DNA of 32,044 nt from a virus: IMG/VR virus record IMGVR_UViG_3300032224_001167, positions 1-32,044 of that record; one strand, written 5' to 3'. A program made the translations under genes and the position numbers. Numbering within the stretch: position 1 is the first letter of the stretch; each line of letters begins with the position of its first letter. The notes beneath the pieces are model-generated. The model made no database searches, was not told where the DNA came from, and was given only the letters and a program-made list of their open reading frames with translations. This document shows positions 894 to 27,093 of this stretch, piece by piece.

Positions 894-1676
894 ATGATTA
901 AGTTAACTGACTTATTATTAGAGGCACAATTGCCTTCTAGTGAACAAGATATGGATTTTTATGCTAAAAAGTATAAGAAAACCATTGATTATTTAAGACA
1001 AAAGAATAAAGTATTGTTGTTGACAACCAGTAATAGATGGTCACAACATAAAGAAGATGTTCCTAAGAGCAGTCAATTGGCTATAAAAATTCAAGATTTA
1101 TTAGGTAAAGAAAAAGTCACGTTAATTGATACTACAAAACTTAATATAGTTCCGTGTGAAGGTAATGTAAGTAGTAACAGAGAATTTGATGGCAATCATT
1201 GTGGAACTGTAAAATCGTTATTAAAAGATAAAGAAAAAAATCCAAGTGGGTATCATCGTTGTTGGGCTAGTATAAATAATAAAAGTGATGAATTATGGAA
1301 AATAAGTAAAGAATTATTTGAAAGTGATACAGTTTTATTTTTTGCTAGTGTTAGATGGGGACAAGCTAATGGGTATTATCAAAAATTAATTGAAAGATTA
1401 ACTTGGATTGAAAATAGACATTCTACATTAGGAGAAAAAAATATAGTAAAAAATATTGACGCAGGATTTATTGCGACTGGACAAAACTGGAACGGAAAGT
1501 ATGTCACTAAAACACAAAAAGAAGTGCTTCAATTTTTTGGATTCAATACACCCGATGAATTATTTTGGAACTGGCAATTCACGGATAATACTCTTGATGA
1601 AACAAATCGTTCCTACAATAAAGCCATTACAACATTTGACAATACATTTTTAAAACCATATGATAAAGCTGAATAA
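894..1676 (+). CDS. Flavodoxin-like NAD(P)H/FMN oxidoreductase with a capsid-targeting-like leader
   Basis: 260 residues from the ATG at 894. An in-frame ATG at 792 lies inside the previous gene and would put the promoter box inside the coding region, so 894 is preferred. A first beta strand (KVLLLTT, residues 39-45) is followed by a phosphate-binding-type loop TTSNRWS (44-50). Later ESDTVLFFASVRWGQANG and KLIERLTW (143-171) match the second flavin-side strand and helix of NADPH-dependent FMN reductases. Substrate is unknown. The N-terminus MIKLTDLLLE|AQ has the [L/I]xE|A form cut by T4-type prohead proteases, and resembles the leader of the next protein. I infer that this enzyme may be packaged in the head. 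It overlaps the next gene by 17 bases. The fold is fairly clear; packaging is a hypothesis. Confidence 0.7.
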   Translation: MIKLTDLLLEAQLPSSEQDMDFYAKKYKKTIDYLRQKNKVLLLTTSNRWSQHKEDVPKSSQLAIKIQDLLGKEKVTLIDTTKLNIVPCEGNVSSNREFDGNHCGTVKSLLKDKEKNPSGYHRCWASINNKSDELWKISKELFESDTVLFFASVRWGQANGYYQKLIERLTWIENRHSTLGEKNIVKNIDAGFIATGQNWNGKYVTKTQKEVLQFFGFNTPDELFWNWQFTDNTLDETNRSYNKAITTFDNTFLKPYDKAE

Positions 1677-4632
1677 TTTAGAACATTTTTTGGTATCTAA
1701 TATATTACTTAACGAAGCTGCTCGCATAGACCATGCGGAAGATTTGATATTTTGGGAAGGTTCCAAAGGAGCCATTCGTTCAATCAAAAGTTTCATCGAA
1801 TTAGAAAAAGAAGGATATAAAAATGTTACATTAAAATGGGATGGTTCTCCGGCAGTTGTTTTTGGTAGAAATGATGAAGGAAAATTTGTATTAACCGATA
1901 AAAGCGGATTTGTTGCCAAAGGATATAATGGCAGACCAACGTCACCAGAAGAATTGGAACAAATGTTTTTGAATAGAGGTAAAAGCGTAAAAACAGACGA
2001 ATATGGATTGTTTGTTCAAGAAATGAAACGTGTATTTTCTATATTTGAATCTGCGGTTCCAACAACATTTAGAGGTTATTTCAAAGGCGATTTGTTATAT
2101 TTTAATACACCATTGATTGAAAATGGAAGATATGTTTTTAAACCAAATATTGTTACATATACAGTAGATGTTAATTCTGAATTGGGAAGAAAAATTGCAC
2201 AAAGTAAAGCTGCGGTTGTAGTACATAGAGAAGTAGACAGTTTTGGAAATGAAACTGCGATTACAAATTACAATGTATTTCAAGGCAATCAATTATTAGT
2301 AATACCACCAATATCTGTACATAATCCGCCTGATGTAAATGAAAAGAGGTTGAAAGATATTGTACTTTATATTAATAAATATGCTAGAAATATAGATGAT
2401 TTTATTAATCCATCTAAATTGACAAGTATGAAAATGACTAATTTTCCAGATATATTATATAAATATTTGAATAGTAAAGTAGATACCGGATTAGTAAATA
2501 TTGGCGATGATTTTCTACAATGGATTAGTCAGAGTAATCTTACAGATACGATGAAAAAGAAAATTACTGATTATGTTAATAGTAATCGTGCCGGATTTGA
2601 ATCTTTATGGAAAGTTGTTGTGGAAATAATGACGGTTAAAGATGAAATTATTAATCAAATAGACAATCAAGATAGTGAAATTAAATCATATATAGGCAAT
2701 GAACCAGGAGGTGAGGGTTATGTATTCTCTCATCCAGAAGGTGATATTAAGTATGTTTCCCGTTCCAAATTCAGCGCAGCAAATAGAGCTGCGCATAAAC
2801 AACCAATTGATGAAGGTGGATGGTTAAAACCAGAACTTACATCCAAGACAGTTTTGTCACCAGATACAATTGAAAAAGCAACTGAAAAGTTTAAAGTTTT
2901 TTTGGCTGATTTGAATATGTTTTTAAGCGACATACCAATGACTCCAATTAAAGATTATCAAATATTAGGTTCGGCAGGATATTATAGACAAGACCAACAC
3001 GATAAAAAACAAGTAACTTATGGTGATATTGATGTAATGGTTGTTATACCAATTGAAACCGGTGAAAACGGCAGTGACATAAAAAAAGAATATATCAAAA
3101 ATGTAATTCAATTTATTGAAAAAGGAGGACAAAATTACATTGATATTGAAAGTGCAAAAAGATCGGATGGTAAACAGATTATAATCAAACTCGATGATGA
3201 TAGTTGGGTTCAATTGGATTTATTATATACTACAAAAATATATAAAGATTGGTTTGCGGCTAGATTTACACCTGAAAGAGGTATAAAAGGATTTACAATG
3301 GGAGGAATGTATGCTGCATTAGCAGAAATTTTAAATATTAGAATTGGCGATACCGGCGTAAGAGCTAAATTTAAGGATGGTAAGATTGTATCTCCAATGT
3401 TAAGAAAAGATGTTGTAGACAAATTGATATCTAATAGCCCCCGTACATTTTTAAGAGATTTGGCAGACTTTTTGGCCGAATTATTTAGTAAAAAGATTAC
3501 TGTTGTTGACCCAAATTTATCTACACACAGTGGCGTAAATCCATATAATGTTAAATTAAAAGATTTAACTACAGGTGTTCTTGGATTTGCAAGAACTCTT
3601 GATAAAAATGGTATTCTTTCTGATTTGGGATTTGATTATACATCATTTATTAAAACAATAAAAGACAAATATGCAGAAAAGATGATTGAACAATATTCAA
3701 AGAAAGAAAAGAAAGCAACTACACCAGAAACTCAAGCATCTATAGATAAGATTAAGAAACACGCTGATTTGGGAAATAAAATCGTTAATGATATATTGAA
3801 AGAATTTTTAATTACCGAAAGTGGTAATGCTGTTGCTGCAAATAGTGGTTTACCAAAACAATATTTAGATTCCACAATAAAAAATGGATTAAAAATATGG
3901 AATCTTGATTCATTAAATTATGAAATTATTGGAAACAAATCCAAACCAGTTCTGGGTGATATTGATGTCGCAGTATCCACTCAACAATTGAATCAATTAT
4001 TTGGTGTAGATTATGATTATGATAAAAAAATGTTTTATGATAAATTAAAACAACATATGGAAGCAAATAAACCTGCGACTGTTCCTACACCATCATTTAA
4101 AATAAATACGGGATTAGACCAATTACATTTAAATGTACCTATAATTGATGAAAATGGTAATCCTGTTAAATCAACCGAAATACCAAATGAAGATGGTTAT
4201 GTACAAATAGATTTGATGATTGGAGATTTAAATTTTATGATTAAATCTTTATCTGGTGCACCTGATTCTAAGTATAAGGCGGCATTAAGAAATATTCTAT
4301 TAATGAATATTATGTCTAATAGTTATGAACCTACTGAAGATCCAAACAAGATGAAAAGATATCAAATGAATTGGAAAAAAGGACTTCAAAGTGCAGATGT
4401 TATAACAAATGAAAAAGGTAAACAAGAAAAACAAAATATAAAAACTGTTTATACGGATATGGATGACGTTGCTAAATTTTTATTTGGCAATAATGTAACA
4501 TTTAATGACATTAACACTTTAGAAAAACTAATTAAATTAGTGAAAGGTAATACTTTTCGTTATAAAAACAAAAGAACTGAAATCTTAGATGATTTCAAAA
4601 AGGAATTGGAAAGATTAAAAGTAAAGTTATGA
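1660..4632 (+). CDS. Three-domain nucleotidyltransferase-like protein (ligase-like plus two Pol beta-like domains)
   Basis: 990 residues. Domain 1 (about 20-385) has the pattern of covalent nucleotidyltransferases (DNA/RNA ligases): KWDG at 59-62 (motif I, candidate nucleotide-accepting Lys59), GDLLY at 143-147, EGYVF at 352-356 (motif IV) and Lys364/Lys370 in a motif V-like stretch. Domain 2 has LGSAGYYR then GDIDVMVVI (Asp456, Asp458) and VQLDLLY (Asp520), the three-carboxylate pattern of Pol beta-type nucleotidyltransferases. Domain 3 repeats it: IGNKSKPVLGDIDVAV (Asp767, Asp769) and VQIDLMI (Asp851). The leader ends LLNE|AA at 19/20, a prohead-protease-type site. Further [L/I]xE|[AGS] sites fall at 385 and 720, between domains, and one at 130 inside domain 1. 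Its stop overlaps an ATG (ATGA) at 4629. Motifs are seen directly; activities and partners are inferred. Confidence 0.65.
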   Translation: MIKLNNLEHFLVSNILLNEAARIDHAEDLIFWEGSKGAIRSIKSFIELEKEGYKNVTLKWDGSPAVVFGRNDEGKFVLTDKSGFVAKGYNGRPTSPEELEQMFLNRGKSVKTDEYGLFVQEMKRVFSIFESAVPTTFRGYFKGDLLYFNTPLIENGRYVFKPNIVTYTVDVNSELGRKIAQSKAAVVVHREVDSFGNETAITNYNVFQGNQLLVIPPISVHNPPDVNEKRLKDIVLYINKYARNIDDFINPSKLTSMKMTNFPDILYKYLNSKVDTGLVNIGDDFLQWISQSNLTDTMKKKITDYVNSNRAGFESLWKVVVEIMTVKDEIINQIDNQDSEIKSYIGNEPGGEGYVFSHPEGDIKYVSRSKFSAANRAAHKQPIDEGGWLKPELTSKTVLSPDTIEKATEKFKVFLADLNMFLSDIPMTPIKDYQILGSAGYYRQDQHDKKQVTYGDIDVMVVIPIETGENGSDIKKEYIKNVIQFIEKGGQNYIDIESAKRSDGKQIIIKLDDDSWVQLDLLYTTKIYKDWFAARFTPERGIKGFTMGGMYAALAEILNIRIGDTGVRAKFKDGKIVSPMLRKDVVDKLISNSPRTFLRDLADFLAELFSKKITVVDPNLSTHSGVNPYNVKLKDLTTGVLGFARTLDKNGILSDLGFDYTSFIKTIKDKYAEKMIEQYSKKEKKATTPETQASIDKIKKHADLGNKIVNDILKEFLITESGNAVAANSGLPKQYLDSTIKNGLKIWNLDSLNYEIIGNKSKPVLGDIDVAVSTQQLNQLFGVDYDYDKKMFYDKLKQHMEANKPATVPTPSFKINTGLDQLHLNVPIIDENGNPVKSTEIPNEDGYVQIDLMIGDLNFMIKSLSGAPDSKYKAALRNILLMNIMSNSYEPTEDPNKMKRYQMNWKKGLQSADVITNEKGKQEKQNIKTVYTDMDDVAKFLFGNNVTFNDINTLEKLIKLVKGNTFRYKNKRTEILDDFKKELERLKVKL

Positions 4633-4652
4633 AAAGAGCAACAGGAAAGTAA
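4629..4652 (+). pseudogene. Remnant start of the downstream gene, cut off by the endonuclease insertion
   Basis: ATGA overlaps the stop of the 990-residue gene, as expected for a coupled next gene, but the frame ends after MKRATGK. The real downstream gene at 5477 begins MRSNTGK, and the DNA around both starts is alike: AAGTTATGA is identical at 4624-4632 and 5472-5480, with scattered matches after it. This looks like the original start, left behind when the GIY-YIG gene inserted. Probably not a functional product. Confidence 0.45.
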
Positions 4653-4671
4653 TTTTTACTTTTTTTAATCA

Positions 4672-4679
4672 TATTTATT
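4672..4679 (+). promoter_or_regulatory. Late-promoter-like box TATTTATT
   Basis: One-base variant of the TATTTATA box, 4 bases before the ATG at 4684 and 19 bases before the in-frame ATG at 4699. It would drive the endonuclease and the two terminase-region genes behind it. Confidence 0.4.
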
Positions 4680-4683
4680 CTAT

Positions 4684-5487
4684 ATGAATGAACGGTCTAT
4701 GTCTAATACTGGAATATATAAAATAAGAAATATCATCAATGATGACTGTTATATTGGAAGTGCATCATATACTTTCAATAAACGATGGAATACACATAAA
4801 CACCAATTAAAAAATAATAAACATCATTCTATCATTCTTCAAAGAGCGTGGAATAAATACGGAGAAAACAATTTTAAATTTGAAATTATAGAATGTTGTG
4901 AACCATCTGAATGTTTAATAAAAGAACAACATTATTTGGATAATTTAAAACCAAAATATAATATAAATCCAAATACTGAAAGTCCACTTGGCAGAAAACT
5001 TAAACCAGAAGACTGTAAAAAAATATCAGATAGAACAAGTGGTATAAAAAATCCATTTTTTGGAAAACATCACACAGAAGAAACTAAAAAATTACTTTCT
5101 GAAAAATTAAAAGGAAAAAATAAAGGAAAATTTTTGGCAGAAAAAAATCCAATGTATAAAAAAACACATTCTGATGAAAATAAAAAAATAATGTCTTTAT
5201 CTAGTAATCAATTTTGGAATAGTGAAATGGGAATAAAATTGAAAGAAATTAAATCAAAAGAAAAATTAGGAAAAACGAATCAATTTGCAAAAAAAGGATC
5301 TGAACATCCTAATTTTATTTCTACAACATACCATTTTGTTAATAAACAATTAAATGAAGAATTTGTAGGAACTATGTTTGATTTTAGAAAAAAATATAAA
5401 TTATGTTCAGATGTTTACTATCTATTAGATGGTAAAAAGAAAAAATATCAACAATATAAAGGATGGACTATAAGTTATGAGAAGTAA
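4684..5487 (+). CDS. GIY-YIG homing endonuclease with NUMOD3-type repeats
   Basis: 267 residues from 4684, or 262 from the ATG at 4699 (MSNTG), which may be the real start. The GIY-YIG domain begins at TGIYKIRN, with CYIGSA about 14 residues on, KRWNTHKHQL carrying the conserved Arg, and LIKEQHYLD carrying the catalytic-type Glu. Two NUMOD3-like DNA-binding repeats follow (NPFFGKHHTEETKK and NPMYKKTHSDENKK). It is a T4 Seg-like mobile nuclease sitting between the nucleotidyltransferase gene and the putative small terminase. The last 11 bases overlap the next gene, and its end SYEK is encoded by the duplicated AAGTTATGA sequence that supplies the next gene with a new start. The family call is strong; the target site is inferred to lie at the start of the downstream gene. 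Confidence 0.9.
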   Translation: MNERSMSNTGIYKIRNIINDDCYIGSASYTFNKRWNTHKHQLKNNKHHSIILQRAWNKYGENNFKFEIIECCEPSECLIKEQHYLDNLKPKYNINPNTESPLGRKLKPEDCKKISDRTSGIKNPFFGKHHTEETKKLLSEKLKGKNKGKFLAEKNPMYKKTHSDENKKIMSLSSNQFWNSEMGIKLKEIKSKEKLGKTNQFAKKGSEHPNFISTTYHFVNKQLNEEFVGTMFDFRKKYKLCSDVYYLLDGKKKKYQQYKGWTISYEK

Positions 5488-6169
5488 TACTGGCAAAAAT
5501 ATAAAATTAAAGACAGGAAAATCTAATTTAGATATAGTAAGAAGTTATTTAAATGGTGAAAGAGCATTTATTCAAGTTGGTTATGATCCTAATTTGAATA
5601 ATAGTAAAAGAAAAGAAGGAGAAGAATGGGAAGATGGACAAGGTAATAAATGGATTTGGAAAAACGGAAGCAAGAGAAAAGTATCTAAACTTGGACAAAT
5701 TAAAATTGATCAAAGATGTAGTATCTGTAATGCAGATATGAAATTTGGCAATTATCTTGATGATAGATTTTTTCCTAAAACAGGTAAATGTTATGATTGC
5801 ACTATTTCATTTGATAGCAAATTAAAAACATTAGGCGTATATGCGGATTATGAAAGATATAAAATCTATAATAGTATGCTTTCTGAAATGAATGATTTTA
5901 AGAAAAATATTACTGATAGCATTGAATATTTAGAAAAAAATCCAGATGAAAAATTACAATTTTTTAATGATGATGGTAGCCAAGAATTCTGGACGGATGA
6001 TACAAATCAAATGCAAAAAGTTTTATCTGATTTGAAAAAAGATTTAAAAGAAGTCGATGAAAATATTGTAAAAGCTACTGAAGAATTGTTGAAATTAAAT
6101 TATAATCCAGAAATTGAAAAGAAAGCTAAACAAATGGTTTTAGATAAATTGAATTCGGTTGATCAATGA
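5477..6169 (+). CDS. Zinc-ribbon protein in the small-terminase position (gp16-like by position)
   Basis: 230 residues, ending 4 bases into the terminase gene (ATGA overlap). I do not recognise the family from sequence. Residues 47-64 hold a Trp/Gly motif (KEGEEWEDGQGNKWIWKNG). CSIC at 81-84 and CYDC at 105-108 make a likely four-Cys zinc ribbon. The C-terminal half (about 125-225) is charged and helical with heptad-like spacing, plausible for a coiled coil. In T4, gp16 sits directly before gp17, so position, size and coiled-coil character suggest a small terminase subunit that recognises DNA and regulates packaging. That is inference: T4 gp16 has no such zinc ribbon to my knowledge. The start was apparently rebuilt by the upstream endonuclease insertion. 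Confidence 0.5.
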   Translation: MRSNTGKNIKLKTGKSNLDIVRSYLNGERAFIQVGYDPNLNNSKRKEGEEWEDGQGNKWIWKNGSKRKVSKLGQIKIDQRCSICNADMKFGNYLDDRFFPKTGKCYDCTISFDSKLKTLGVYADYERYKIYNSMLSEMNDFKKNITDSIEYLEKNPDEKLQFFNDDGSQEFWTDDTNQMQKVLSDLKKDLKEVDENIVKATEELLKLNYNPEIEKKAKQMVLDKLNSVDQ

Positions 6170-7761
6170 GTACACCCAAAACACTTAAAGAAGTAATTAA
6201 AGAGGAATATAAGAAATGTCTTGTAGATCCGATTTATTTCATGAAAAAGTATGTTAAAATTCAACATCCTATTCGTGGAACCGTAAACTTTGATTTGTAT
6301 GAATTTCAAGAAAAGACTTTAACTGATTTAGTAGATCATGATTTTAATATTATATTAAAGTCTAGACAGATGGGTATTAGTACATTAACTGCAGCATATA
6401 GTTTGTGGTTAATGGTATTTCATAAAGATAAAAATGTTCTGTGTATTAGTATCAATCAAGAAACATCTAAAGAAATTGTTACCCGTGTTAGATTTGCTAA
6501 CGATAATCTTCCATCTTGGTTGAAAGTAAAAGAACAAGAAGATAATAGATTAAGTTTAAGATTGACAAACGGTTCACAGATTAAAGCCGTATCATCTGCT
6601 GGTACATCAGGTCGTTCTTCTGCATTGTCATTGTTGATTATCGATGAAGCTGCATTTATTGATAACATTGAAGAAATTTGGTTGTCTGCACAATATACAT
6701 TAAGTACTGGTGGTAGAGCTATCATGTTAAGTACACCAAATGGTGTTGGTAATTTCTTTCATCAAACATGGATAAAAGCAGAAGCTAAAGAAAATAAATT
6801 CAATACAATTAGACTTCCTTGGCATTTGCATCCAGAACGTGATCAAACTTGGAGAGATAAACAAACAGAATTATCTGGTGTTAAAGGTGCGGCCCAAGAA
6901 TGCGACTGTGATTTTTCCACTACAGGTAACGGAATTGTTGATGCAGCTACTATTGATTTTTACAAACAAAGTAAAGTAAAAGAACCAATAGAAATGAGAG
7001 GAATGGATCATGGATATTGGATATGGGAATATCCCGATTATAGTAGAAATTATATAGTTAGTGCTGACGTTGCTAGAGGTGACGGAGCGGATTATAGTGC
7101 ATTTCAAGTTCTTGATGTAGAATCATTGACGCAAGTTGCCGAATATAAAGGACAAATTGGTACTAAAGATTATGGTAATATGTTGGTAAGTGTGGCTACA
7201 GAATATAATAATGCTTTACTTATAGTTGAAAATGCAAATATTGGTTGGGCAGTTTTACAACAAATAATAGATAGACAATATCCAAATACGTTCTATAGTA
7301 GTGCAGACCTACAATATGTTGACGTTGAAAGACAATTGACTAATAAAGTTAATAGAGATGAAAAGAAAATGATTCCTGGCTTTACTAATAGTCAAAAGAC
7401 TAGACCATTATTGATTTCAAAATTGGAAACATATTTTAGGGAAAGATCTGTAGAAGTAAGATCGCTTAGATTTTTAGATGAATTATCTGTATTTATTTGG
7501 GATGGCAATAAAGTCGCTGCGATGAAAGGTTATAATGACGATTTAGTTATGGCAATGAGTATTGGTTTATGGGTTAGAGATACAGCGTTAAAACTAAGAC
7601 AACAAAGTATGGATTTAAATAGATCAATGTTGGGTGGAATTACCAGAATAGGCGGATCACAAAATATTTATAAAGCGCAATCAGCGAGTAGTCAAGAAGC
7701 ATGGCAAATGACAACCGGAAAAACTACAGATAAAAAAGAAAACCTAACTTGGTTACTATAA
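6166..7761 (+). CDS. Terminase large subunit, DNA-packaging ATPase/nuclease (gp17-like)
   Basis: 531 residues. It pumps DNA into the prohead through the portal and cuts the concatemer. The ATPase domain has a Walker A-type loop KSRQMGIST (65-73), Walker B LLIIDEAAF (Asp160, Glu161) and an STPNG coupling motif at 189-193. The RNase H-like nuclease domain has SADVARGDGADYSAF (Asp301), LLIVENANIG (Glu355) and GYNDDLVMAM (Asp458/459), matching the three acidic residues of this family. T4 gp17 has SRQLGKT in its loop; here Ile replaces that Lys, and a Lys sits at the loop's start as in lambda-type terminases. It is shorter than T4 gp17 (610). The gene overlaps its upstream neighbour by 4 bases and lies 21 bases before the portal gene. 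Confidence 0.95.
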   Translation: MSTPKTLKEVIKEEYKKCLVDPIYFMKKYVKIQHPIRGTVNFDLYEFQEKTLTDLVDHDFNIILKSRQMGISTLTAAYSLWLMVFHKDKNVLCISINQETSKEIVTRVRFANDNLPSWLKVKEQEDNRLSLRLTNGSQIKAVSSAGTSGRSSALSLLIIDEAAFIDNIEEIWLSAQYTLSTGGRAIMLSTPNGVGNFFHQTWIKAEAKENKFNTIRLPWHLHPERDQTWRDKQTELSGVKGAAQECDCDFSTTGNGIVDAATIDFYKQSKVKEPIEMRGMDHGYWIWEYPDYSRNYIVSADVARGDGADYSAFQVLDVESLTQVAEYKGQIGTKDYGNMLVSVATEYNNALLIVENANIGWAVLQQIIDRQYPNTFYSSADLQYVDVERQLTNKVNRDEKKMIPGFTNSQKTRPLLISKLETYFRERSVEVRSLRFLDELSVFIWDGNKVAAMKGYNDDLVMAMSIGLWVRDTALKLRQQSMDLNRSMLGGITRIGGSQNIYKAQSASSQEAWQMTTGKTTDKKENLTWLL

Positions 7762-7782: not shown

Positions 7783-9699
7783 ATGGCAAACGAAGAATTT
7801 CAAATATTAAAACAAAGATCTTTATATTCAAAATTAAAGAGACTTTTTTCCACCGATGCAGTAATTCGTAATATTGGCGGTAAGAAATTAAAAGTGGTAG
7901 ATACAGATGAAGTAATGTATGCTACAGATCGTAATACACTTAGAGATCGTTTTAATAGAATTAGAACATCTTCATATAATCAATACAGTAGAGATTTTAC
8001 TTTAAGTTATCAAGCTGCTCGTATTGAATTATTCCGTGATTATGATACAATGGATATGGACCCTATCATTAGTTCTGCATTGGATATTTACGCAGATGAA
8101 TGTGTAACTAAGAATGAACTGGGAGAAATTCTAATAATTCATTCAACCAACGATAACATCAAACAAATTCTTTATAATTTGTTTTATGACATTCTTAATA
8201 TTGAATTTAATATGTGGAGTTGGACTAGAAATCTTGTAAAGTATGGTGATTTCTATTTAAAAATGTATATTAGTCCAGAATATGGTGTTTACATGGTGGA
8301 ACCTATTAGTGCATATAATGTTACCCGTGTAGAAAATAGCGATTTAACAAACAAGAATTATGTTAAATTCCAAATTAATTTACCTGAAGGTGGTAGATTG
8401 GAAGAATTGGAAAATTATCAAATTGCGCATTTTAGAATGTTGAGTGATAGCAATTTTATTCCATATGGTAAGAGTATTATTGAAGGTGGTAGAAGAGTAT
8501 GGAAACAGTTATCATTGATGGAAGACGCAATGTTAATTCACCGTGTAATGCGTGCTCCAGAAAAGAGAATTTTCAAGGTTGACGTTGGTAATATTCCTCC
8601 TGCGGAAGTGGACCAATATATGCAAAGATTGATGGATAAGATGAAAAAAGTCCCATATATTGACGAAAGAACAGGTGATTATAATCTTCGTTTCAATCTT
8701 CAAAATATGGTAGAAGATTTCTATTTACCAGTTCGTGGTAGTGATAGTGGTACTAGTATTGAACCTTTGAGTGGTATGGAATTCAATGGTATTGATGACA
8801 TTGAATATCTTCGTAATAAGATGTTAGCTGCATTAAAGATTCCCAAGGCATTTTTGGGTTATGAAGAAGATTTGAGTGGTAAAGCAACACTTGCAAGTGA
8901 AGACGTAAGATTTGCCAAGACTGTAAACAGAGTACAAAGAATTTTGATTAGTGAATTGAACAAAATTGCAATGGTACATTTGTATGCTCAAGGATATAAA
9001 GATGCATCATTGGTTGATTTTACATTGGAATTAACAAATCCTTCAGTAATTTTTGAAAAAGAAAAAATTGCTATTTGGCAAGATAAAGTAAATCTTTCCA
9101 AAGATATGATGGAAACCAAATTATTTAGTAAGAAATGGATATATGAAAATGTATTTAAGATTTCCGATGAAGACGTAGATATTCAAAAGAATGACTTAGT
9201 TGAAGATGCTAAACAATCTTACAGATTTAAACAAATTGAAGATGAAGGTATTGATCCAGCTAAACCATTCAATAAAATTAAACCTGAAGACGGTTCTGGC
9301 GGAGAAACTGGTGGTGGTGATATTGGTGCTGACGCCGGCGGAGAAACTGGTGCAACTCCAGAAGCCGGAAGTGAAACAGGTGGCGAACCCGGTGGTGGAG
9401 AAACTAGTGGTGAAACTCCTGCATTAACTGAAAAATCACTTAGAACATATAAAAGACCTTCACAAAAAGGTTCTCATAAAAAAAGAAAAGATAATACATT
9501 TGGATATGACCCATTGGGAAGTAAAGAAAATGTATCACAATCTCAAACAGACCCATTAAGACAAGGTTCCAAAACCAAATCTCCATTGAGTTTAGAGGGT
9601 TTAAATGACTTTTTAAAAACAACATCTCAAATAAAAACTGAACTATTAAACGAAACAAAAAGTCTATCAATGTTAGACGAAAAAAATATTATTGAATAA
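7783..9699 (+). CDS. Portal vertex protein (gp20-like)
   Basis: 638 residues. It forms the ring at one capsid vertex through which DNA enters and leaves, and where the terminase and neck dock. Sequence typical of T4-type portals includes DYDTMDMDPIISSALDIYADE (residues 86-106), WSWTRNLVKYGDFYLKMY, RAPEKRIFKVDVGNIPP, and IPKAFLGYEEDLSGKATLASEDVRFAKTVNRVQ. It is longer than T4 gp20 (524). The extra length is mostly at the C-terminus, where residues about 503-550 are a Gly/Glu/Thr-rich low-complexity linker followed by a Lys-rich stretch. Only 21 bases separate it from the terminase; the sheath and tube genes that lie between terminase and portal in T4 are absent here. Confidence 0.93.
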   Translation: MANEEFQILKQRSLYSKLKRLFSTDAVIRNIGGKKLKVVDTDEVMYATDRNTLRDRFNRIRTSSYNQYSRDFTLSYQAARIELFRDYDTMDMDPIISSALDIYADECVTKNELGEILIIHSTNDNIKQILYNLFYDILNIEFNMWSWTRNLVKYGDFYLKMYISPEYGVYMVEPISAYNVTRVENSDLTNKNYVKFQINLPEGGRLEELENYQIAHFRMLSDSNFIPYGKSIIEGGRRVWKQLSLMEDAMLIHRVMRAPEKRIFKVDVGNIPPAEVDQYMQRLMDKMKKVPYIDERTGDYNLRFNLQNMVEDFYLPVRGSDSGTSIEPLSGMEFNGIDDIEYLRNKMLAALKIPKAFLGYEEDLSGKATLASEDVRFAKTVNRVQRILISELNKIAMVHLYAQGYKDASLVDFTLELTNPSVIFEKEKIAIWQDKVNLSKDMMETKLFSKKWIYENVFKISDEDVDIQKNDLVEDAKQSYRFKQIEDEGIDPAKPFNKIKPEDGSGGETGGGDIGADAGGETGATPEAGSETGGEPGGGETSGETPALTEKSLRTYKRPSQKGSHKKRKDNTFGYDPLGSKENVSQSQTDPLRQGSKTKSPLSLEGLNDFLKTTSQIKTELLNETKSLSMLDEKNIIE

Positions 9700-9775: not shown

Positions 9776-10642
9776 ATGCACAAAGCTAAGCATTCAAAGT
9801 TTAGAAATACAGGAATATTGTTTGAATTGCTCACTCGACAAGTGACATCAGATATTTTGTCTGGAAAAGACGAATCTTTTGCCAAGAATATTCTATTTAA
9901 ATATTTTTCTGAAAATAAAGAATTAGGCAAAGAGTTACAATTGTATAACTTTTTAGTTAATGAAGTTGCGAAAGACGAAACACAAGCAGAAAAATACATT
10001 GAAATTGTATTAAAACAAAGAGATAAACTAAATCAAAAGACATTAACGTCCGAAAAATACAATTTAATTAAAGAAATCAAGGATGTTTATCCAATCAATG
10101 ATTTATTTAAGTCTAGTATTAAGAATTATAAAGTATTGGCTTCAATATATAAAATTTTTGAAAATCATAGTGATAAAAATTCAAAGTTTGATGTAAAAGA
10201 AATTGTTTCTTCTAGAACCAGTATAGTTGAAAATTTATGTGGTTCTAAAAAAGTAGTTAAAGAAACTGAAGATGAAATGATTAATGTTTATAAACAACAA
10301 AATGAAGAAGTTCGTCTTTTAAGTTATAAGATATTAGTAGAATCTCTAAATGAAAAGTATAAAGATTTGAATTCAAGTCAAAAAAATCTATTGAAAGAAT
10401 ATATCAATAGTATCAGTAATACAAATTCATTAAAGAAATTAATCGATTCTGAAGTAACAAATGTCAATAAACAATTGGCCGAATTAACATCTAAAATTTC
10501 TGATGATGTTATCAAGATTAAGATTAATGAAACTGTAAAACAACTTGATAATGTTAAAAAATTTAATCTCGTTAAAGATAATCAAATTATGGTTCTATTG
10601 TTATCATATGAATTGATAAAAGAAATCAAGAATCAACTTTAA
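9776..10642 (+). CDS. Conserved T4-type late protein between portal and protease, function unknown
   Basis: 288 residues, strongly helical and Lys/Glu/Asn-rich, with no Cys cluster, signal peptide or membrane segment. The N-terminus MHKAKHSKFRNTGILFELL looks like that of unassigned late proteins in other T4-like phages, as far as I recall; I cannot check this here. In T4 this slot holds the prohead-core genes 67 and 68, so a role in prohead assembly is a reasonable guess from position alone, though this protein is larger than either. The next gene starts 1 base after its stop, so the two are probably translated together. Confidence 0.6.
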   Translation: MHKAKHSKFRNTGILFELLTRQVTSDILSGKDESFAKNILFKYFSENKELGKELQLYNFLVNEVAKDETQAEKYIEIVLKQRDKLNQKTLTSEKYNLIKEIKDVYPINDLFKSSIKNYKVLASIYKIFENHSDKNSKFDVKEIVSSRTSIVENLCGSKKVVKETEDEMINVYKQQNEEVRLLSYKILVESLNEKYKDLNSSQKNLLKEYINSISNTNSLKKLIDSEVTNVNKQLAELTSKISDDVIKIKINETVKQLDNVKKFNLVKDNQIMVLLLSYELIKEIKNQL

Positions 10643-11943: not shown

Positions 11944-11975
11944 ATAAAACACATTTAATTTGTGTTTTATTTTTT
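11944..11975 (+). terminator. Rho-independent terminator after the prohead protease
   Basis: A 10-base perfect stem ATAAAACACA (11944-11953) pairs with TGTGTTTTAT (11961-11970) around a 7-base loop, then a T run. It closes the protease unit before the endonuclease. Confidence 0.75.
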
Positions 11976-11991
11976 GTATTTGTATGTAATT

Positions 11992-13683
11992 ATGTACAAA
12001 GACAAACGCTATATGATTAAAAACTGGATAGAGAATAATTTAATTTCAAATAAAAAACTTGTATCTAAAAGATGTAAAAAAGAATGGTTTATTAAAAATA
12101 ACTATATTGATGTGTATAATGAAATCTTATTAGAAACTAATTTTTTAAATGATTCAACATTTCCGCAAAAAATATGGCATATAGTAAATGAAAAATTTAG
12201 TTTGTATAAGTGTAATAATCCTAATTGTAACAATGTACCTAATTTTTTAACATATACAAGTGGATATTCAAGAACATGTAGTAATGTATGTGCTCAATTT
12301 GATCCACAAACTGTAAGCAAAATAAAACAGACCAATTATAAAAAATATGGTGTTGAATATGGATTGAGCAACAAAGATATAATTGAAAAACGAAAAGTTA
12401 CATGTGTTAAAAACTATGGTGTAGATAATCCTACTAAATCACAAATTATTTTGGATAAAATTGCAAGTTCAAATAAAGAAAAATATGGTGTTGAATGGAT
12501 TTTACAAAATCAGTCTAAAAAAGAATTGGCGATGATTAAAAAATACGGTGTTAAAAATATACAACAAAGTCAGGAAATAAAGTTAAAAACATCTGTTACA
12601 CGTAGATCTTTGTTTTATGATAGTTTATTTTCTACAGATAGATTGAAAAGTAAAGTTGTTCCTTTATTTTCAAAGGATGAATATGTTATTGATGGATATT
12701 ATTCAAACTTTAAATTTAAATGTTTAACTTGTAATACTGAATTTTTTGATTGTTTAGAAGACGGTGATGTTCCTAGATGTACAAAATGTTATAAACATTC
12801 TTCAATTTTTGAAGAAGAAGTATTTAATTTTATACAAAGTTTAGTTACAGTTGGTATCAAACGAAATGATAAAACAGTATTAAATACATTAGAATTAGAC
12901 ATTTATATATGTGACAAGAAGATTGCATTTGAATGTAATGGTTTGTATTGGCACGGTGAAATTAATGGTGGTAAGAATAAAAAATATCATTTGAATAAAA
13001 CTTTAGAATGTGAAAGTAAAGGAATACGATTAATTCACATCTTTGAAGATGAATGGTTATTTAAAAAAGATATTGTTAAAAGCCGAATTAAAAATCTGTT
13101 AAATAAAAATGAAAATAAAATTTTTGCAAGAAAATGTACAATAAAAGTAATAAAACCATCAGAATCAAATTATTTTTTAGAAAAGAATCATATTCAAGGA
13201 AAAGATAATTCATCTGTTAAACTGGGATTATTGTTAAATAATGAATTAGTATCTGTTATGACATTTGGTAAATTAAGAACCGCATTAGGAAATAAAAATA
13301 AGATTGATATATGGGAAATGTATAGATTTTGTAATAAAACCAATACTACAGTAATTGGTGCGGCTAGTAAATTACTAAAATATTTTATAAAAACATACTA
13401 TCCTAAAAAAATAATAACTTATTCGGATAAAAGATGGAATTCAGGTAATCTATATACAACACTAAATTTTATAAAAATTTCAAATGGTACTCCCAATTAT
13501 TGGTATTATGGAAAAGGTAATAGTTATAAAAGACATCATAGATTTAGTTTTGCCAAACACATATTATCCAAAAAAATAAAAACATTTGATATCAATTTAA
13601 CTGAATGGGAAAATATGAAAAATAATGGATATGACAGAATATGGGATTGTGGAAGTGACAAATTTGAATTCAATATAGTTTAA
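11992..13683 (+). CDS. Homing endonuclease with KYGV repeats and a PD-(D/E)XK/Vsr-like nuclease domain
   Basis: 563 residues from the ATG at 11992. A GTG at 11962 would start inside the terminator stem, so it is rejected. The N-terminal half has a CNNPNC...C...C zinc-binding-type segment, then repeats of the form KYGVE/N-x-S-x-I-x-K-x-T (near KKYGVEYG, KNYGVDNP, KEKYGVEW and KKYGVKN), typical of modular DNA-recognition regions in phage mobile nucleases. The nuclease core is LELDIYICDKKIAFECNGLYWHGE, with acidic residues spaced as in the fragment at 2-874. The rest matches that fragment along its length, down to NGYDRIWDCG. It lies between the protease terminator and the gene at 13737. A weak box TATTTGTA lies 7 bases before the start. 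Confidence 0.8.
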   Translation: MYKDKRYMIKNWIENNLISNKKLVSKRCKKEWFIKNNYIDVYNEILLETNFLNDSTFPQKIWHIVNEKFSLYKCNNPNCNNVPNFLTYTSGYSRTCSNVCAQFDPQTVSKIKQTNYKKYGVEYGLSNKDIIEKRKVTCVKNYGVDNPTKSQIILDKIASSNKEKYGVEWILQNQSKKELAMIKKYGVKNIQQSQEIKLKTSVTRRSLFYDSLFSTDRLKSKVVPLFSKDEYVIDGYYSNFKFKCLTCNTEFFDCLEDGDVPRCTKCYKHSSIFEEEVFNFIQSLVTVGIKRNDKTVLNTLELDIYICDKKIAFECNGLYWHGEINGGKNKKYHLNKTLECESKGIRLIHIFEDEWLFKKDIVKSRIKNLLNKNENKIFARKCTIKVIKPSESNYFLEKNHIQGKDNSSVKLGLLLNNELVSVMTFGKLRTALGNKNKIDIWEMYRFCNKTNTTVIGAASKLLKYFIKTYYPKKIITYSDKRWNSGNLYTTLNFIKISNGTPNYWYYGKGNSYKRHHRFSFAKHILSKKIKTFDINLTEWENMKNNGYDRIWDCGSDKFEFNIV

Positions 13684-13736: not shown

Positions 13737-14174
13737 ATGATTAAATTAGCCGAAATAGCAGAAACACTTGGTATTAAACAACAACCATCTGCACCACAAC
13801 AACCACAAGTTGCTAGTGAATCTCCTACAACAGTAAAGACACTTACCAAAGAAGAAAAGAAAGCTCTTTATGAATTGGTAAACAATTACAATGAATATGG
13901 TAAACTTCTTTATGAGTATCACCAATTGATGAAAGTTGCCGAAAACATTGATAAGATATCACAATATGCAGAAACCTATGCATTGAATGAATGTGGTGAT
14001 TGGATGCAAGAAAATACTGCAATTCGTCATTTCAAAGATTTAAAAAGAATGTCTGAAACATTTAAAAAGAATGCAGCTAAATGTCAACAACAAAATTCCG
14101 AAATGGTAAGTTTGTATGAAGATATGGGAAATATTCTTGAAAAGTATTTTGAAATAAAAGATGTAAACAAATAA
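13737..14174 (+). CDS. Small helical late protein, function unknown
   Basis: 145 residues. The N-terminus MIKLAEIAETLG resembles the MIKL leaders of the proteins at 894 and 1660, and IAE|T is a near-match to the prohead-protease rule, though Thr is not the usual next residue. A Gln/Pro-rich linker (about 13-30) is followed by a long, mostly helical region, probably coiled coil (YNEYGKLLYEYHQLMKVAEN and onward). A prohead-core or internal head protein is possible; I do not recognise a named family. It ends 20 bases before a strong bidirectional terminator shared with the convergent genes on the other strand. Confidence 0.6.
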   Translation: MIKLAEIAETLGIKQQPSAPQQPQVASESPTTVKTLTKEEKKALYELVNNYNEYGKLLYEYHQLMKVAENIDKISQYAETYALNECGDWMQENTAIRHFKDLKRMSETFKKNAAKCQQQNSEMVSLYEDMGNILEKYFEIKDVNK

Positions 14175-18171: not shown

Positions 18172-18921
18172 ATGAAAATAGGTATTTACAAAATTACAAA
18201 TTTAAAAAACGGAAAATTTTACATCGGTTCATCAAAAGATATAGACAGAAGATGGTGGGAACATATAAATGAATTAAATAAAAATATTCACATAAATAAA
18301 AAATTACAAAATTCATGGAATTTTTACGGCAAAGATAATTTTAAATTTGAAGTAATTGAAGAATTAAATGATGAACAAATATTATTGGAAAGAGAACAGT
18401 ATTATTTAGATACATTTCAACCTTATAGAAACAATATTGGTTATAATATTGCATTAAGTTCTTCAGGAGGAGATAATTTTACACATAATCCAAATAAAGA
18501 AACTATAAGACAACAATTATCTGAAATGTATTCGGGAGAAAATAATCCTATGTTTGGAAAAAAACATAATAATGATAGTATTATAATTCAAAAACAAAAA
18601 GCATTAGGTAGATTTACTTTAAATTGGTTTGTTGAAAAATATGGAATTGAAATTGGAACTATAAAATATGAAGAGAGAAGAAATAATTTATCTTCAAGAA
18701 AAATAAATTACTCTTATGATAATAATAAAACAGGTAAAAAACAAGGTCCAATGAATGAAAACAGAAAAACAAACATATCCGTTTCAAAAAATAATATTAA
18801 AAAAATAAAACATGAATTATATCAAGACATATTATCCAATCAATATACAATTAAAGAACTTTCAATTAAATATAATTTGAGTGGAACTACTATAAAATAT
18901 CACAAACGAAAGATAAAATAG
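18172..18921 (+). CDS. GIY-YIG homing endonuclease with NUMOD3 and a C-terminal helix-turn-helix
   Basis: 249 residues. GIYKITN begins at residue 4, FYIGSS follows about 13 residues later, DRRWWEHINEL carries the conserved Arg, and LEREQYYLDTF the catalytic-type Glu. A NUMOD3-like module (ENNPMFGKKHNND, about 122-134) and a C-terminal HTH-like segment (QYTIKELSIKYNLSGTTIKYHKRKIK) would read DNA. It lies between the capsid terminator and the operon starting at 18939, with only 17 bases before that start. A weak GGTAAGG stretch precedes the ATG. Codon use is strongly A/T-ending, in sharp contrast with the capsid gene beside it. The family call is secure. Confidence 0.92.
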   Translation: MKIGIYKITNLKNGKFYIGSSKDIDRRWWEHINELNKNIHINKKLQNSWNFYGKDNFKFEVIEELNDEQILLEREQYYLDTFQPYRNNIGYNIALSSSGGDNFTHNPNKETIRQQLSEMYSGENNPMFGKKHNNDSIIIQKQKALGRFTLNWFVEKYGIEIGTIKYEERRNNLSSRKINYSYDNNKTGKKQGPMNENRKTNISVSKNNIKKIKHELYQDILSNQYTIKELSIKYNLSGTTIKYHKRKIK

Positions 18922-22244: not shown

Positions 22245-23018
22245 ATGAGTGCTAATAAATATCTTTATTTAATGGTTAAAACCCATACTGTCACCGGATT
22301 GAAATATCTTTGTAAAAAAGTAACTACCAGTGATTCTAAAGCTATTTCATACTTAGGTTCTGGAACAAGATGGAATAATCATTTAAAAGTCCATGGGAAA
22401 CATATAAATACAGAAATAATTGTTAAGTATGAATTAGATAAAATTGAAGAATTTAGTAAACTATGCATTGAACATAGTAATAAATTTAATATAGTTAAAA
22501 GTAATGATTGGGCAAATTTAATTGAAGAAAATGGATTGATGGGAGCGGTTTGTGGTATAAATAACCAAATGTATAAAAAATCAACTATTGATAAATTAAA
22601 AAAAACAATAAATTCTCCTATACATAAACAAAAAATGATAAAAAATGCTATTGAAATCAATAGTAGACCGGATGTCAGGGAAAAAATACGACAATCTAAA
22701 TTAGGAGACAAAAATCCATCTAAAAGACCAGAAGTAATTCAAAAAATTAAAGATCATTTCAGAAAACCTGAAATTTTAGAATATTATAAAAAAATTAATT
22801 TAGGAGAAAAAAATCCAAACGCTGACTTATCTATTTATTCATTAAAAAACATTAAAACCGGAATTATTTTAATTGGAACAAAACATTATATTAGTAACCA
22901 AAGTGTTATTCTTAACAAACTTAATAATAACGTATCTATTTTAATTCCATCAAATATAACAAATTTCAACAGAAAAAATAGAAAAATTAAAAGTGTAAAA
23001 GGATGGATTAAACTATGA
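22245..23018 (+). CDS. Putative homing endonuclease, divergent GIY-YIG-like with NUMOD-type repeats
   Basis: 257 residues. KYLYLMVKTHTVTGLKYLCKK...SYLGSGTRWNNHLKVHG is a pattern seen in phage mobile nucleases related to the GIY-YIG group, although the canonical GIY and YIG triplets are replaced (YLM, YLC). LGDKNPSKRPEVIQKI and LGEKNPNADLSIYSLKN look like NUMOD3-type modules, and the C-terminal VKGWIKL resembles the ends of other such enzymes. It sits between the LamG and gp13-like genes. Its start ATGAGTGCTAAT echoes the downstream start ATGAGTAATGCTAAT, and its stop overlaps that start by 4 bases (ATGA). The mobile-nuclease call is likely; exact family less so. Confidence 0.7.
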   Translation: MSANKYLYLMVKTHTVTGLKYLCKKVTTSDSKAISYLGSGTRWNNHLKVHGKHINTEIIVKYELDKIEEFSKLCIEHSNKFNIVKSNDWANLIEENGLMGAVCGINNQMYKKSTIDKLKKTINSPIHKQKMIKNAIEINSRPDVREKIRQSKLGDKNPSKRPEVIQKIKDHFRKPEILEYYKKINLGEKNPNADLSIYSLKNIKTGIILIGTKHYISNQSVILNKLNNNVSILIPSNITNFNRKNRKIKSVKGWIKL

Positions 23019-24310: not shown

Positions 24311-24784
24311 ATGGCATTATTTGGGAGATATTTTAGTCAACGAGACATTAATTTGGTAAACCAATTTAATGCGGAATTGATGCGTGATATTATTGAAACG
24401 TTAGTTGTTTTATTTAAAATTGCACCAAATGAAACCAATACAAACATTTATGGCGAAGCAGTTGCTGCTGAAGGAAAGAGTTTTTATTCTGGTGTAGAAT
24501 TGAGCAGTTTAATTGACCGTGGAGATATTACTACGGATGATGAAGGATTTGGTCCAGATAGAGATCAAAGTGTTGTATTTAAATTTAGAGAATTGGCATT
24601 AAAAGATGCTAGTTTTTATCCAGAAGTTGGTGATTTGATATTATTTAATGATCGTTATCATGAAGTTGATAATGTAGTGCAGGAGCAGCTGCTCGGAGGT
24701 CAAGCAAATAAATCACATAGTATTATTTGCAATACGCATTATAGCAAGTTGAGCAAAATTAATCTGGTTAACCGACAATACTAA
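24311..24784 (+). CDS. Neck protein (gp14-like)
   Basis: 157 residues; T4 gp14 has 256. The segment YPEVGDLILFNDRYHEVDNVV (about 115-135) parallels T4 gp14's EGDLIYFPMDNSLFEINWV, and GEAVAAEGKSFYSGVEL corresponds to the region around RGVECYYVPRE. It binds the neck with gp13 so that tails can attach. It overlaps the 3' end of the minus-strand endonuclease by 17 bases, so the endonuclease may have replaced the gene's original end; the protein still ends in a natural-looking KINLVNRQY. Identification rests on remembered T4 sequence and gene order. Confidence 0.65.
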   Translation: MALFGRYFSQRDINLVNQFNAELMRDIIETLVVLFKIAPNETNTNIYGEAVAAEGKSFYSGVELSSLIDRGDITTDDEGFGPDRDQSVVFKFRELALKDASFYPEVGDLILFNDRYHEVDNVVQEQLLGGQANKSHSIICNTHYSKLSKINLVNRQY

Positions 24785-25715
24785 ATTTTTTAATTGGAAA
24801 TGTTTTTATTTTTTTATTTAACCAATCATTCCAATCAGATTCCCATATATAATAAACGGTGTAATTTTTTGAAACTAACTTTTTAAATCTATCAAAAGTT
24901 TTTTTATACAAATTTTTATATTTAACTTTAGTAATTGGATGTATATCGTTAGAATTATATTTTTTAGGATTGCCGTGCCAAAAATCACCTAAAAATTCAA
25001 AAATTTTATTTTTGACAATACCGTCAACTTTTATTTTTCCCAATCCTAAATATTTTTGTCTATTTTCAGAATTATTTGGTATTTTTAAATAATTTAAGAA
25101 CTCTGATTCTGGTATTGATATTATTTTTGAACATTTAGGACATCCACTTCCATGTAAATGATGTTTTGGAATTTGATAGAAACATCCGTGTTTTTTGCAA
25201 ATTATTTTTATTTTTGATTTATTAGATTTATATACAGATTCCGAATAATCATATTTTGAATTATGTACATTATTTGCGTCTATAATAAAGTTGTTTATTC
25301 CTTTATTACATCTAATACTTGTTTTAACATCTTTACATTTAGTACATCCTTGTTTAAATAAATGTCCATTTGGATATTGACTAAATTTACCGTGAGTTTT
25401 ACATATTATATCAACTTTTATATTCCATTTTTTATAATTAACTAATGAATAATCATATATATCACCGTGTACTAATTTTGATTTTTCAATAAATGTTTTT
25501 GTATCTAATTGTTTACCTCTACTTGCGCACATATTGCATCCACATACATTTCTTAAATGGTCAATTGGTTTTTGTAAAAAATCACCGTGTATTTTACATG
25601 TAATTATTACGGATTTTGTTCTATCTTCATATATAGATTTTTCATAGGAAAATTTATCTCCAAAAATTAGTTTTGATTTATTGATAAAATCTTCAGCTGT
25701 TAATTTTTTTGGCAT
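24768..25715 (-). CDS. Minus-strand homing endonuclease with three zinc-binding repeats and a Vsr-like nuclease domain
   Basis: 315 residues. Three repeats of about 65 residues share F-x-x-KS-x-x-x-[H/F]G-D/x-x-YDYS...ICK-x-HG-x-F-x-Q-x-P-x-x-HL...GC-x-x-C (for example IICKTHGKFSQYPNGHLFKQGCTKC), each likely binding zinc and together reading DNA. The C-terminal nuclease core VDGIVKNKIFEFLGDFWHGNP has the same acidic-Gly-WHG pattern as the enzymes at 2-874 and 11992. It is inserted opposite to the late genes, between gp14-like and gp15-like genes, overlapping the former by 17 bases and the small minus gene upstream by 23. It is the only endonuclease here on the minus strand. Confidence 0.82.
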   Translation of the reverse strand: MPKKLTAEDFINKSKLIFGDKFSYEKSIYEDRTKSVIITCKIHGDFLQKPIDHLRNVCGCNMCASRGKQLDTKTFIEKSKLVHGDIYDYSLVNYKKWNIKVDIICKTHGKFSQYPNGHLFKQGCTKCKDVKTSIRCNKGINNFIIDANNVHNSKYDYSESVYKSNKSKIKIICKKHGCFYQIPKHHLHGSGCPKCSKIISIPESEFLNYLKIPNNSENRQKYLGLGKIKVDGIVKNKIFEFLGDFWHGNPKKYNSNDIHPITKVKYKNLYKKTFDRFKKLVSKNYTVYYIWESDWNDWLNKKIKTFPIKKFSIVG

Positions 25716-25847: not shown

Positions 25848-25909
25848 GTATTAAAGTTAGAAAAAAGTTAGAAAATATCAATTAATATAAATATATTTTT
25901 TTTAATTGA

Positions 25910-25917
25910 TATTTATT
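25910..25917 (+). promoter_or_regulatory. Late-promoter-like box TATTTATT
   Basis: 3 bases before the ATG at 25921 and divergent from the minus-strand copy at 25840-25847. Confidence 0.45.
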
Positions 25918-25920
25918 ATT

Positions 25921-27093
25921 ATGTGGCAAGGAAATACGAACAATCCAGTACCAACAAATAACAATGTTGAAAAGAACAATCCTATTGTTTCTAATGTAAG
26001 AAACATTGCGTTGGATACTAGACGAGATGAAGATGCAAAGAAAAATTTTACAGTTAGTTTATTAGATATTGATACTGCGTTGATTAGTTATATACAAAAT
26101 ATTATCAATCCTACTGTAATTGACGCTGGCGAAAATATAAAAGTACCAATTATTTATGGTAATCCTGAAAAATGGTATGCAGCAAAAGCACAAGGTGCAT
26201 TAAGAGATCAACAAGGTAAGTTACAAATTCCGTTGATAATGGTCAAAAGAACATCATTTTCAAAAGATGAAGGTTATCAAACATTAAATCGTTATTTGAG
26301 TTATCCAGTAATGACTAAATTTAATGAAAAGAACAAATATGACAAATTTAATTTATTAAATAATACTGTTGCTCCTACAAATCAAATATTTGCAGTTACA
26401 ATGCCGGATCATATTAAAGCAGAATATGAATTTATTGTATGGACCGAATATGTTGAACAAAACAATGCAATATTAGAAAAAATTAACTTTGCAGAAGGAG
26501 ATTATTGGGGTGATAAACAAAGATTTAATTTTAGAGTTAAAATAGATAATTACACCAATACTATTGAATCGAGTGGTGAAAAAGATAGAATGGTAAGAAG
26601 CACATTTACTTTATCTACCAATGCTTATTTATTACCGGAATCATTTGAAGATAGAAAACAGACTGTTCAAAGAATGTTAACACCAAAACAAGTAAAATTA
26701 ACAGCAGAAATTGTTAGTGGTGCTCAAATGGATAAAGTTAATAAAAAAGTTAAGGAAAATACTTACAGTAACAAGGGTAATCCTTATTATAGTATCAATC
26801 CACTTGTCGAAAATGATAGTGAATGGAGATTTCCTAAAGCTACAATTTCAAACGAACAATCTACAACTGCTGCGGGTGAAGCAATTACTACAATTAGACA
26901 AAGTTATGCAGCATTGATTCAACAAACAATTAACGTCACTGTATCAGGATCCAATTCTAATATTTGGCACAATGTTCCAACAACTCCAACAGATTATGGT
27001 GAATCAGGATGGATGGCATTTGATGGTGATTATCATTATATTTATGTAAATGGAAGATGGTTAAGACAATCCATTTCAGAATGGACTGTATAA
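25921..27093 (+). CDS. Tail terminator / proximal tail sheath stabiliser (gp15-like) with C-terminal extension
   Basis: 390 residues from the ATG at 25921; a TTG at 25906 would overlap the promoter box and is rejected. The core matches T4 gp15 in order: IKVPIIYGNPEKW (T4 IRVPITYASKEHF), IKAEYEFIVWTEYVEQ (T4 IKMIYELSIFTRYED), RFNFRVKIDNY, and VRSTFTLSTNAYLLPES (T4 IEWSLTFEVNGWMYPP). gp15 caps the tail so that head and tail join. T4 gp15 is 272 residues; here about 100 more follow, ending WMAFDGDYHYIYVNGRWLRQSISEWTV. That ending resembles the end of the fibre protein at 27159 (FIYVYTGNIWKRVPISNWTP), so a fibre-type tip appears to be joined to the terminator. The match was made from memory of T4. 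Confidence 0.75.
   Translation: MWQGNTNNPVPTNNNVEKNNPIVSNVRNIALDTRRDEDAKKNFTVSLLDIDTALISYIQNIINPTVIDAGENIKVPIIYGNPEKWYAAKAQGALRDQQGKLQIPLIMVKRTSFSKDEGYQTLNRYLSYPVMTKFNEKNKYDKFNLLNNTVAPTNQIFAVTMPDHIKAEYEFIVWTEYVEQNNAILEKINFAEGDYWGDKQRFNFRVKIDNYTNTIESSGEKDRMVRSTFTLSTNAYLLPESFEDRKQTVQRMLTPKQVKLTAEIVSGAQMDKVNKKVKENTYSNKGNPYYSINPLVENDSEWRFPKATISNEQSTTAAGEAITTIRQSYAALIQQTINVTVSGSNSNIWHNVPTTPTDYGESGWMAFDGDYHYIYVNGRWLRQSISEWTV

Follow-up and report, generated by a model that had tools for sequence, protein, structure and literature searches.

Phage T4 requires a small terminase, gp16, as part of its packaging motor. The Pfam family for gp16, PF11053, detected it in 8/10 T4-like records that lack the gene described here, over the cut-off in six (T4, P-SSM4, HTVC008M, phiM12, Aeh1 and KVP40) and below it in S-PM2 and Desulfovibrio phage 7757. 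The P-SSM4 gp16 gene (104849-105073 in NC_006884.2; over the PF11053 cut-off) precedes gp17, whose start is at 109004, by about 4 kb. A position directly before the large terminase (TerL) gene is therefore not required of gp16. In P-SSM4, HTVC008M and S-PM2, gp16 is found downstream of a gp15-like gene (gp15 identity by eye). PMC9611059 describes small terminases (TerS) as a DNA-binding domain joined to a helical-hairpin core, and states that the TerS of herpesviruses has been reported with zinc fingers, which sets a precedent for zinc in such a subunit.

Here we examine a gene, referred to as the zinc-site gene, that lies directly upstream of TerL in a 32,044-base stretch of DNA, the window, which is an entire virus record. 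An earlier sequence-only reading had suggested that its product could be a new type of small terminase that recognises DNA through zinc. To our knowledge, no phage small terminase that combines a Cys4 zinc domain with a helical hairpin has been described. We conclude that the zinc-site gene belongs to the core late genes of a T4-like phage clade, and tentatively that a packaging-accessory function is its most likely single role.

The locus and its altered start

The gene order in the window is DUF6267 gene, GIY-YIG homing endonuclease gene, zinc-site gene, TerL and portal gene. The features considered here are as follows.

1660-4632, + strand: DUF6267 gene, the upstream neighbour, 990 aa (Pfam PF19782, E 6.7e-32)
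4629-4649, + strand: what is left of the ancestral zinc-site start, an ATG with six further codons and a TAA stop, from comparison with endonuclease-free relatives
4650-5512, + strand: 863-base insertion with a GIY-YIG homing endonuclease gene (4684-5487), mapped against relatives
5477-6169, + strand: zinc-site gene, 230 aa, ATG start, without a named family
5513-5592, + strand: 3' flank of the insertion, a probable co-conversion tract, unlike close relatives and like the endonuclease-bearing locus L004
6166-7761, + strand: large terminase TerL, gp17-like (PF03237, 3.2e-11; phrog_2, 1e-46)
7783-9699, + strand: portal protein, T4-type, gp20-like (PF07230, 2.5e-69)
9776-10642, + strand: 288-aa gene after the portal gene, without a significant family match, used as a control and also a rival candidate
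13737-14174, + strand: 145-aa gene, a further rival candidate for the small terminase, present in Mel-JY01, LR756508 and G001 and not found in immuto

The open reading frame at 5477-6169 and its 4-base overlap with TerL, both given in the sequence-only reading, were confirmed; the overlap is the ATGA at 6166-6169, which contains the TerL start. The product of the DUF6267 gene carries a KWDG ligase-like motif and GDIDV motifs (recognised by eye, with positions taken by regular expression in the relative L057), and its stop codon overlaps the original ATG of the zinc-site gene. In close relatives, the zinc-site gene begins MKRATGKSNLD, with the ATG overlapping the DUF6267 stop, and in 45/45 close loci (L004-L048) it ends in the ATGA of the TerL start, so that the gene shares bases with both of its neighbours.

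The start of the gene is disrupted in the window, where a homing endonuclease gene separates the ancestral ATG from the rest of the coding sequence. An insertion of 863 bases follows codon 7, so that the frame from the old ATG at 4629 ends after seven codons, and the current start at 5477 is within the end of the endonuclease gene (PF01541, 8.5e-9; NUMOD3, 4.1e-13; phrog_314, 2.7e-34). The first 12 residues of the protein (MRSNTGKNIKLK) are derived from the insert and have been placed before TGKSNLD. This replacement N-terminus comes from the endonuclease end, and the first residues are therefore unfit for functional inference. Among 46 close loci, the whole endonuclease gene was found elsewhere only in L004. 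When compared with L005, the approximately 80 bases of the 3' flank have identities of 0.68 and 0.82 per 40-base step, after which identity is mostly 0.8-0.97, while the first two 40-base steps compared with L004 have identities of 0.95 and 0.88. This pattern probably reflects co-conversion after homing, which is described for T4 endonucleases in PMC2988022. The same new N-terminus is present in L073 and L074 (around 10001), where the endonuclease gene has been reduced to remnants and the zinc-site proteins are 57-58% identical to that of the window. A group I intron at the insertion was considered and dropped, as Rfam gave no match in the window at gathering thresholds. Further open reading frames that by eye resemble homing endonuclease types are at 11962-13683, 18172-18921, 22245-23018 and 24768-25715.

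A conserved family with a putative metal site

The zinc-site family is large and has no name in Pfam or PHROGs. When the window protein was used to query these collections, nothing better than E 0.05 was returned, and the best match to the sequences of solved structures was at E 0.049. Three distant relatives and the L049 protein gave Pfam values down to E 0.0008 and PHROGs values down to 0.0013, none over the Pfam cut-off and none informative. A tblastn search of 50,697 phage records returned six matches in three lineages, namely Flavobacterium phage immuto (four records), Microcystis phage Mel-JY01 and the uncultured phage LR756508, and queries from LR756508 and immuto added only one doubtful match (E 0.8). 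In IMG/VR, there were 46 close relatives of the window gene, and alignment searches returned at least 507 and at least 577 relatives. The best 80 of each were taken, and the loci studied are thus not a random sample. By profile, the zinc-site gene was found in 191 loci, some of which share a contig and overlap, and these were reduced to 59 representatives at 85% with proteins of 160-246 aa. Genome contigs yielded a single relative, on a 5.3 kb contig in a Rickettsiaceae assembly that has an immuto-like neighbour and is probably phage DNA. In a viral structure library, the sole match with E <= 0.001 was A0A6J5LX10 (E 3.2e-10, 24% identity), an uncharacterised protein of an uncultured Caudovirales phage. 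It has no known function, and from the structure match it is probably a member of the family.

In an alignment of 56 zinc-site proteins, identity falls to 21% and mean column identity is 39%. G48, W51, W59, C81, C105, D107, C108, Y125, G167 and E170 are invariant, and C84 is kept in 90% or more. All 59 representatives have a first Cys cluster followed by CxDC. The spacing of the first cluster varies, and is CxxC in 26, CxxxxCxC in 24, CxC in seven, and CxxCxC and CxxxC in one each. Apart from the start altered by the endonuclease, nothing favours a chance reading frame or an artefact, and the occurrence in 191 loci, conservation down to 21% identity, the invariant Cys, Trp and Gly residues and the Cys pattern in 59/59 representatives make such an origin exceedingly improbable. 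The parts of the protein are as follows.

5618-5680, + strand: Trp/Gly beta-hairpin segment, residues 48-68 (G48, W51 and W59 invariant in 56 aligned proteins)
5717-5800, + strand: putative four-Cys metal site, residues 81-108 (the second pair, CYDC, starts a helix in the model)
5840-6163, + strand: helical C-terminal half, helices 122-154, 178-206 and 211-229, with a short beta tip (G167 and E170 invariant in 56 aligned proteins)

The four Cys previously listed at 81, 84, 105 and 108 are present in the translated protein, as are the residues of the Trp/Gly motif (W51, W59, G48, G56 and G64). The two conserved Cys pairs would be able to hold one metal ion and form a putative metal site. An AlphaFold2 model built from the 56-sequence alignment (mean pLDDT 83.1, pTM 0.58) has strands at 50-68 and a long helical hairpin, and bears out the helical C-terminal half that had been read from the sequence. 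In the model, the second Cys pair opens a helix in a treble-clef-like arrangement. The protein is thus predicted to resemble treble-clef and zinc-ribbon domains, such as the ClpX N-terminal region and those of ribosomal proteins, in having a Cys4 site in which a helix begins at the second CxxC, but the fold match is weak. When folded alone, the Cys/Trp part (pLDDT 76) had only weak zinc-domain matches, the best being a ClpX-ClpP model (9a5x; Z 3.7 over 46 residues, rmsd 3.5), and Foldseek returned no match to this part at E <= 0.001 (best 2.4). Fold searches with the whole model matched generic helical hairpins with Z up to 10.0. There was no small terminase among the 50 PDB matches listed, an absence that we do not count as evidence, and the viral library included one small terminase at E 0.59.

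Position relative to TerL and the search for gp16

TerL is downstream of the zinc-site gene on the same strand in 48/59 representatives, and in the remaining 11 no TerL was found in the locus DNA examined. In 11/48, TerL overlaps the zinc-site gene or is within 10 bases of it, and in the other 37 it is 345 bases to 8.8 kb away. Five annotated genes lie between the two in Mel-JY01 and ten in immuto. To lessen the bias of choosing loci by the zinc-site gene, loci were also selected by TerL. The best 80 of 597 relatives, 62-100% identical to the window TerL, were taken, and after 13 gene-selected loci had been left out 67 new loci (some on contigs already sampled) were examined. In 55 of the new loci, the sequence extends >900 bases upstream of TerL. 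The zinc-site gene was upstream in 50/55, and in 41 of these 50 the two aligned ends overlap or are no more than 10 bases apart. In the other five loci (L273-L277), a 123-aa gene adjoins TerL and glycosyltransferase-like cargo (named by eye) is found upstream. A search of the whole records located the zinc-site gene about 10 kb upstream of TerL in two of the five, while the contigs of the other three end 1.3-4.3 kb upstream of TerL. The zinc-site gene is near-constant in this TerL clade, yet is not welded to TerL.

Other genes are also found beside TerL. A gene of 123-134 aa is directly before TerL in L091-L103 and L273-L277, even where cargo separates off the zinc-site gene, and the 123-aa and 127-134-aa proteins were judged by eye to be one family. 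In L052 (15385-15759) and L053 (12862-13266), proteins of a signal-peptide, coiled-coil and membrane-anchor type (by eye) are encoded directly or closely upstream of TerL. One cluster of the signal-peptide and membrane-anchor type is the direct neighbour of TerL in 21/37 spaced lineages, and proteins of this type are possibly lysis proteins. The tblastn matches to TerL were broken up in L084-L088, L094 and L111 by gaps of about 1.2 to 4.6 kb, which suggests inteins, introns or insertions, and portal matches were interrupted by about 0.7-1 kb in L049, L073, L075 and L082.

In L043, the zinc-site protein is 86% and TerL 65% identical to those of the window, and movement of the zinc-site gene independently of TerL was considered. 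This was ruled out by a switch inside TerL, where identity to the window falls from about 0.85 to 0.65 near 6390-6470. L043 appears to be a recombinant or chimeric contig. As the switch is inside TerL, the zinc-site gene and the TerL N-terminus stay together there. T4 gp16 binds near the N-terminus of gp17, and this single contig is no test of that.

A separate gp16 homologue elsewhere in the genome had been named as the finding that would speak against a small terminase. Two gp16 profiles were used to look for one, and the idea was not refuted. PF11053 detected gp16 in 0/10 records bearing the zinc-site gene. A broader profile, built from seven gp16s, yielded no convincing match in 16 records, of which 15 carry the zinc-site gene, a result that a very diverged gp16 could escape; the best match (E 0.099, 9.3 bits) is inside a 1352-aa frame of Mel-JY01. 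The 15 gene-bearing records are Mel-JY01 and immuto (both labelled complete genomes), the LR756508 genome assembly and twelve from IMG/VR, including that of the window, which is a 32 kb fragment and limits the meaning of gp16 absence there. In leave-one-out trials, all seven training gp16s were recovered at E <= 1.8e-19, and phiM12 gp16 was found at 1.2e-18. Conversely, the zinc-site profile recovered all ten known carriers and detected nothing in T4, P-SSM4, RM378 or seven further T4-like records. In RM378 and the 75 kb record MT121964, profile searches found neither gp16 nor the zinc-site gene. The zinc-site protein and gp16 share no profile similarity (hhalign probability 0.1), and a Pfam scan of the protein did not return PF11053. 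In Mel-JY01, a 104-aa product encoded between the gp15-like and sheath genes was considered as a gp16 and dropped, as it is without a relative in any examined locus. In the window, there is a weak gp15-like match at 25906-27093 (E 0.044, 9.2 bits) near a frame that by eye resembles a tail fibre gene, and no gp16 profile match was found downstream.

Candidate roles and comparison with known systems

The analysis supports the sequence-only reading in what it observed, and its interpretation as a small terminase appears possible, not specific. In its favour, the gene is near-constant upstream of TerL and no convincing gp16 was found in 15 gene-bearing records; against it, the protein has no gp16 profile similarity, the gene is often apart from TerL, a ligase-like gene is nearer in many lineages, and the 288-aa gene shares its distribution. 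Our preferred account, a reasonable candidate that is still less likely than not, is that the zinc-site protein may assist the packaging motor as an accessory factor, doing the work of T4 gp16 without being its recognisable homologue. For such a role we count TerL downstream in 48/59 representatives, the gene upstream in 50/55 TerL-selected loci, the ATGA overlap in 45/45, the lack of a recognisable gp16 in the 15 records, the Cys pattern in 59/59 and the predicted helical hairpin, as in the TerS core (PMC9611059). Against it we count the lack of any relation to gp16, TerL adjacency in only 11/48, the 123-aa gene beside TerL in L273-L277, the distribution of the 288-aa gene, and RM378 and MT121964, which have neither gp16 nor the zinc-site gene. 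On this account, self-assembly and contact with TerL would fall to the helical half, and the holding of DNA or a partner to the metal-site half. The protein would thereby bring TerL to the phage DNA and restrain it until packaging. The broader proposal, in which an unrelated small terminase with a Cys4 zinc domain and a helical hairpin has taken the place of gp16 throughout a clade of T4-like phages, we regard as somewhat doubtful.

An explanation that is almost as good looks to the other side of the gene. The zinc-site protein could conceivably be a nucleic-acid-binding partner of the upstream nucleotidyltransferase or ligase-like protein (DUF6267 type), acting for instance where RNA or DNA ends are repaired or modified, with closeness to TerL reflecting only late-operon order; we consider this rather unlikely. 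A KxDG-bearing open reading frame of >300 aa is directly upstream in 26/58 representatives. Where at least 5 kb was available, a phmmer relative of the KxDG frames ends within 5 kb upstream in 30/37, and 23 of these 30 end within 100 bases of the zinc-site gene. Besides the overlap of its ATG with the DUF6267 stop in close relatives, GTTATGA is found near the start of the gene in 44/45 loci (in L004 the motif belongs to the endonuclease end), and Mel-JY01 and LR756508 keep the ligase-like pairing though TerL is 1.9-2.5 kb away. However, 7/37 representatives have no ligase-like gene within 5 kb, whereas TerL is downstream in 48/48 of those in which it was found, and in immuto a nucleotidase gene lies between the ligase-like and zinc-site genes. 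The upstream link is thus tighter but has exceptions, and the TerL link is looser but has none.

It is also possible, though doubtful, that the zinc-site protein acts in head assembly, late transcription or another DNA transaction, with its gene merely placed in the late block, and that the small terminase is another gene, such as 9776-10642 or 13737-14174, or has been dispensed with. The 288-aa gene is as clade-specific as the zinc-site gene, being present in 4/4 gene-bearing records tested and 0/9 others, and a distribution complementary to that of gp16 is consequently not specific to gp16 replacement. Its mean column identity is 52% (23 sequences) compared with 39% for the zinc-site protein (56 sequences), in samples that are not matched. 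The 145-aa gene was found in 33 loci examined and in 3/4 gene-bearing records tested, with weak partial matches in Aeh1 and KVP40 (E 0.003 and 0.011), but the family was not found in immuto. Zinc ribbons of jumbo phages have been proposed as transcription factors or structural DNA-binding proteins (PMC7824862), but the zinc-site protein matched no transcription or assembly factor over a curated cut-off.

If the protein is the small terminase, phages of a widespread clade have exchanged outright a motor part that is essential in T4, and they offer a natural experiment on what TerL needs from a partner. If the protein is not a small terminase, it is still the product of an unnamed core gene in most clade members examined. 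As a cultured Flavobacterium phage, immuto, carries the gene as KNV73_gp086, its function is open to testing. In a partial coverage of the literature, no title or abstract opening reports a zinc-bearing phage small terminase, and no paper on the zinc-site gene was among the matches listed for Mel-JY01 and immuto.

Compared with the T4 gp16 family (PF11053), the zinc-site protein is alike in being a small, partly helical protein encoded upstream of TerL, with a helical hairpin predicted. The reading frames of T4 genes 16 and 17 overlap, as do those of the zinc-site gene and TerL in close relatives of the window. Unlike gp16, to which it has no profile similarity, the zinc-site protein is 160-246 aa, is often encoded far from TerL, and has a Cys4 site and a Trp/Gly hairpin that are lacking in the seven aligned gp16s. 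Herpesvirus pUL28/pUL56, likened here by description, are TerS-like packaging subunits with reported zinc fingers and are much larger, with residues cited up to 775 in PMC9611059.
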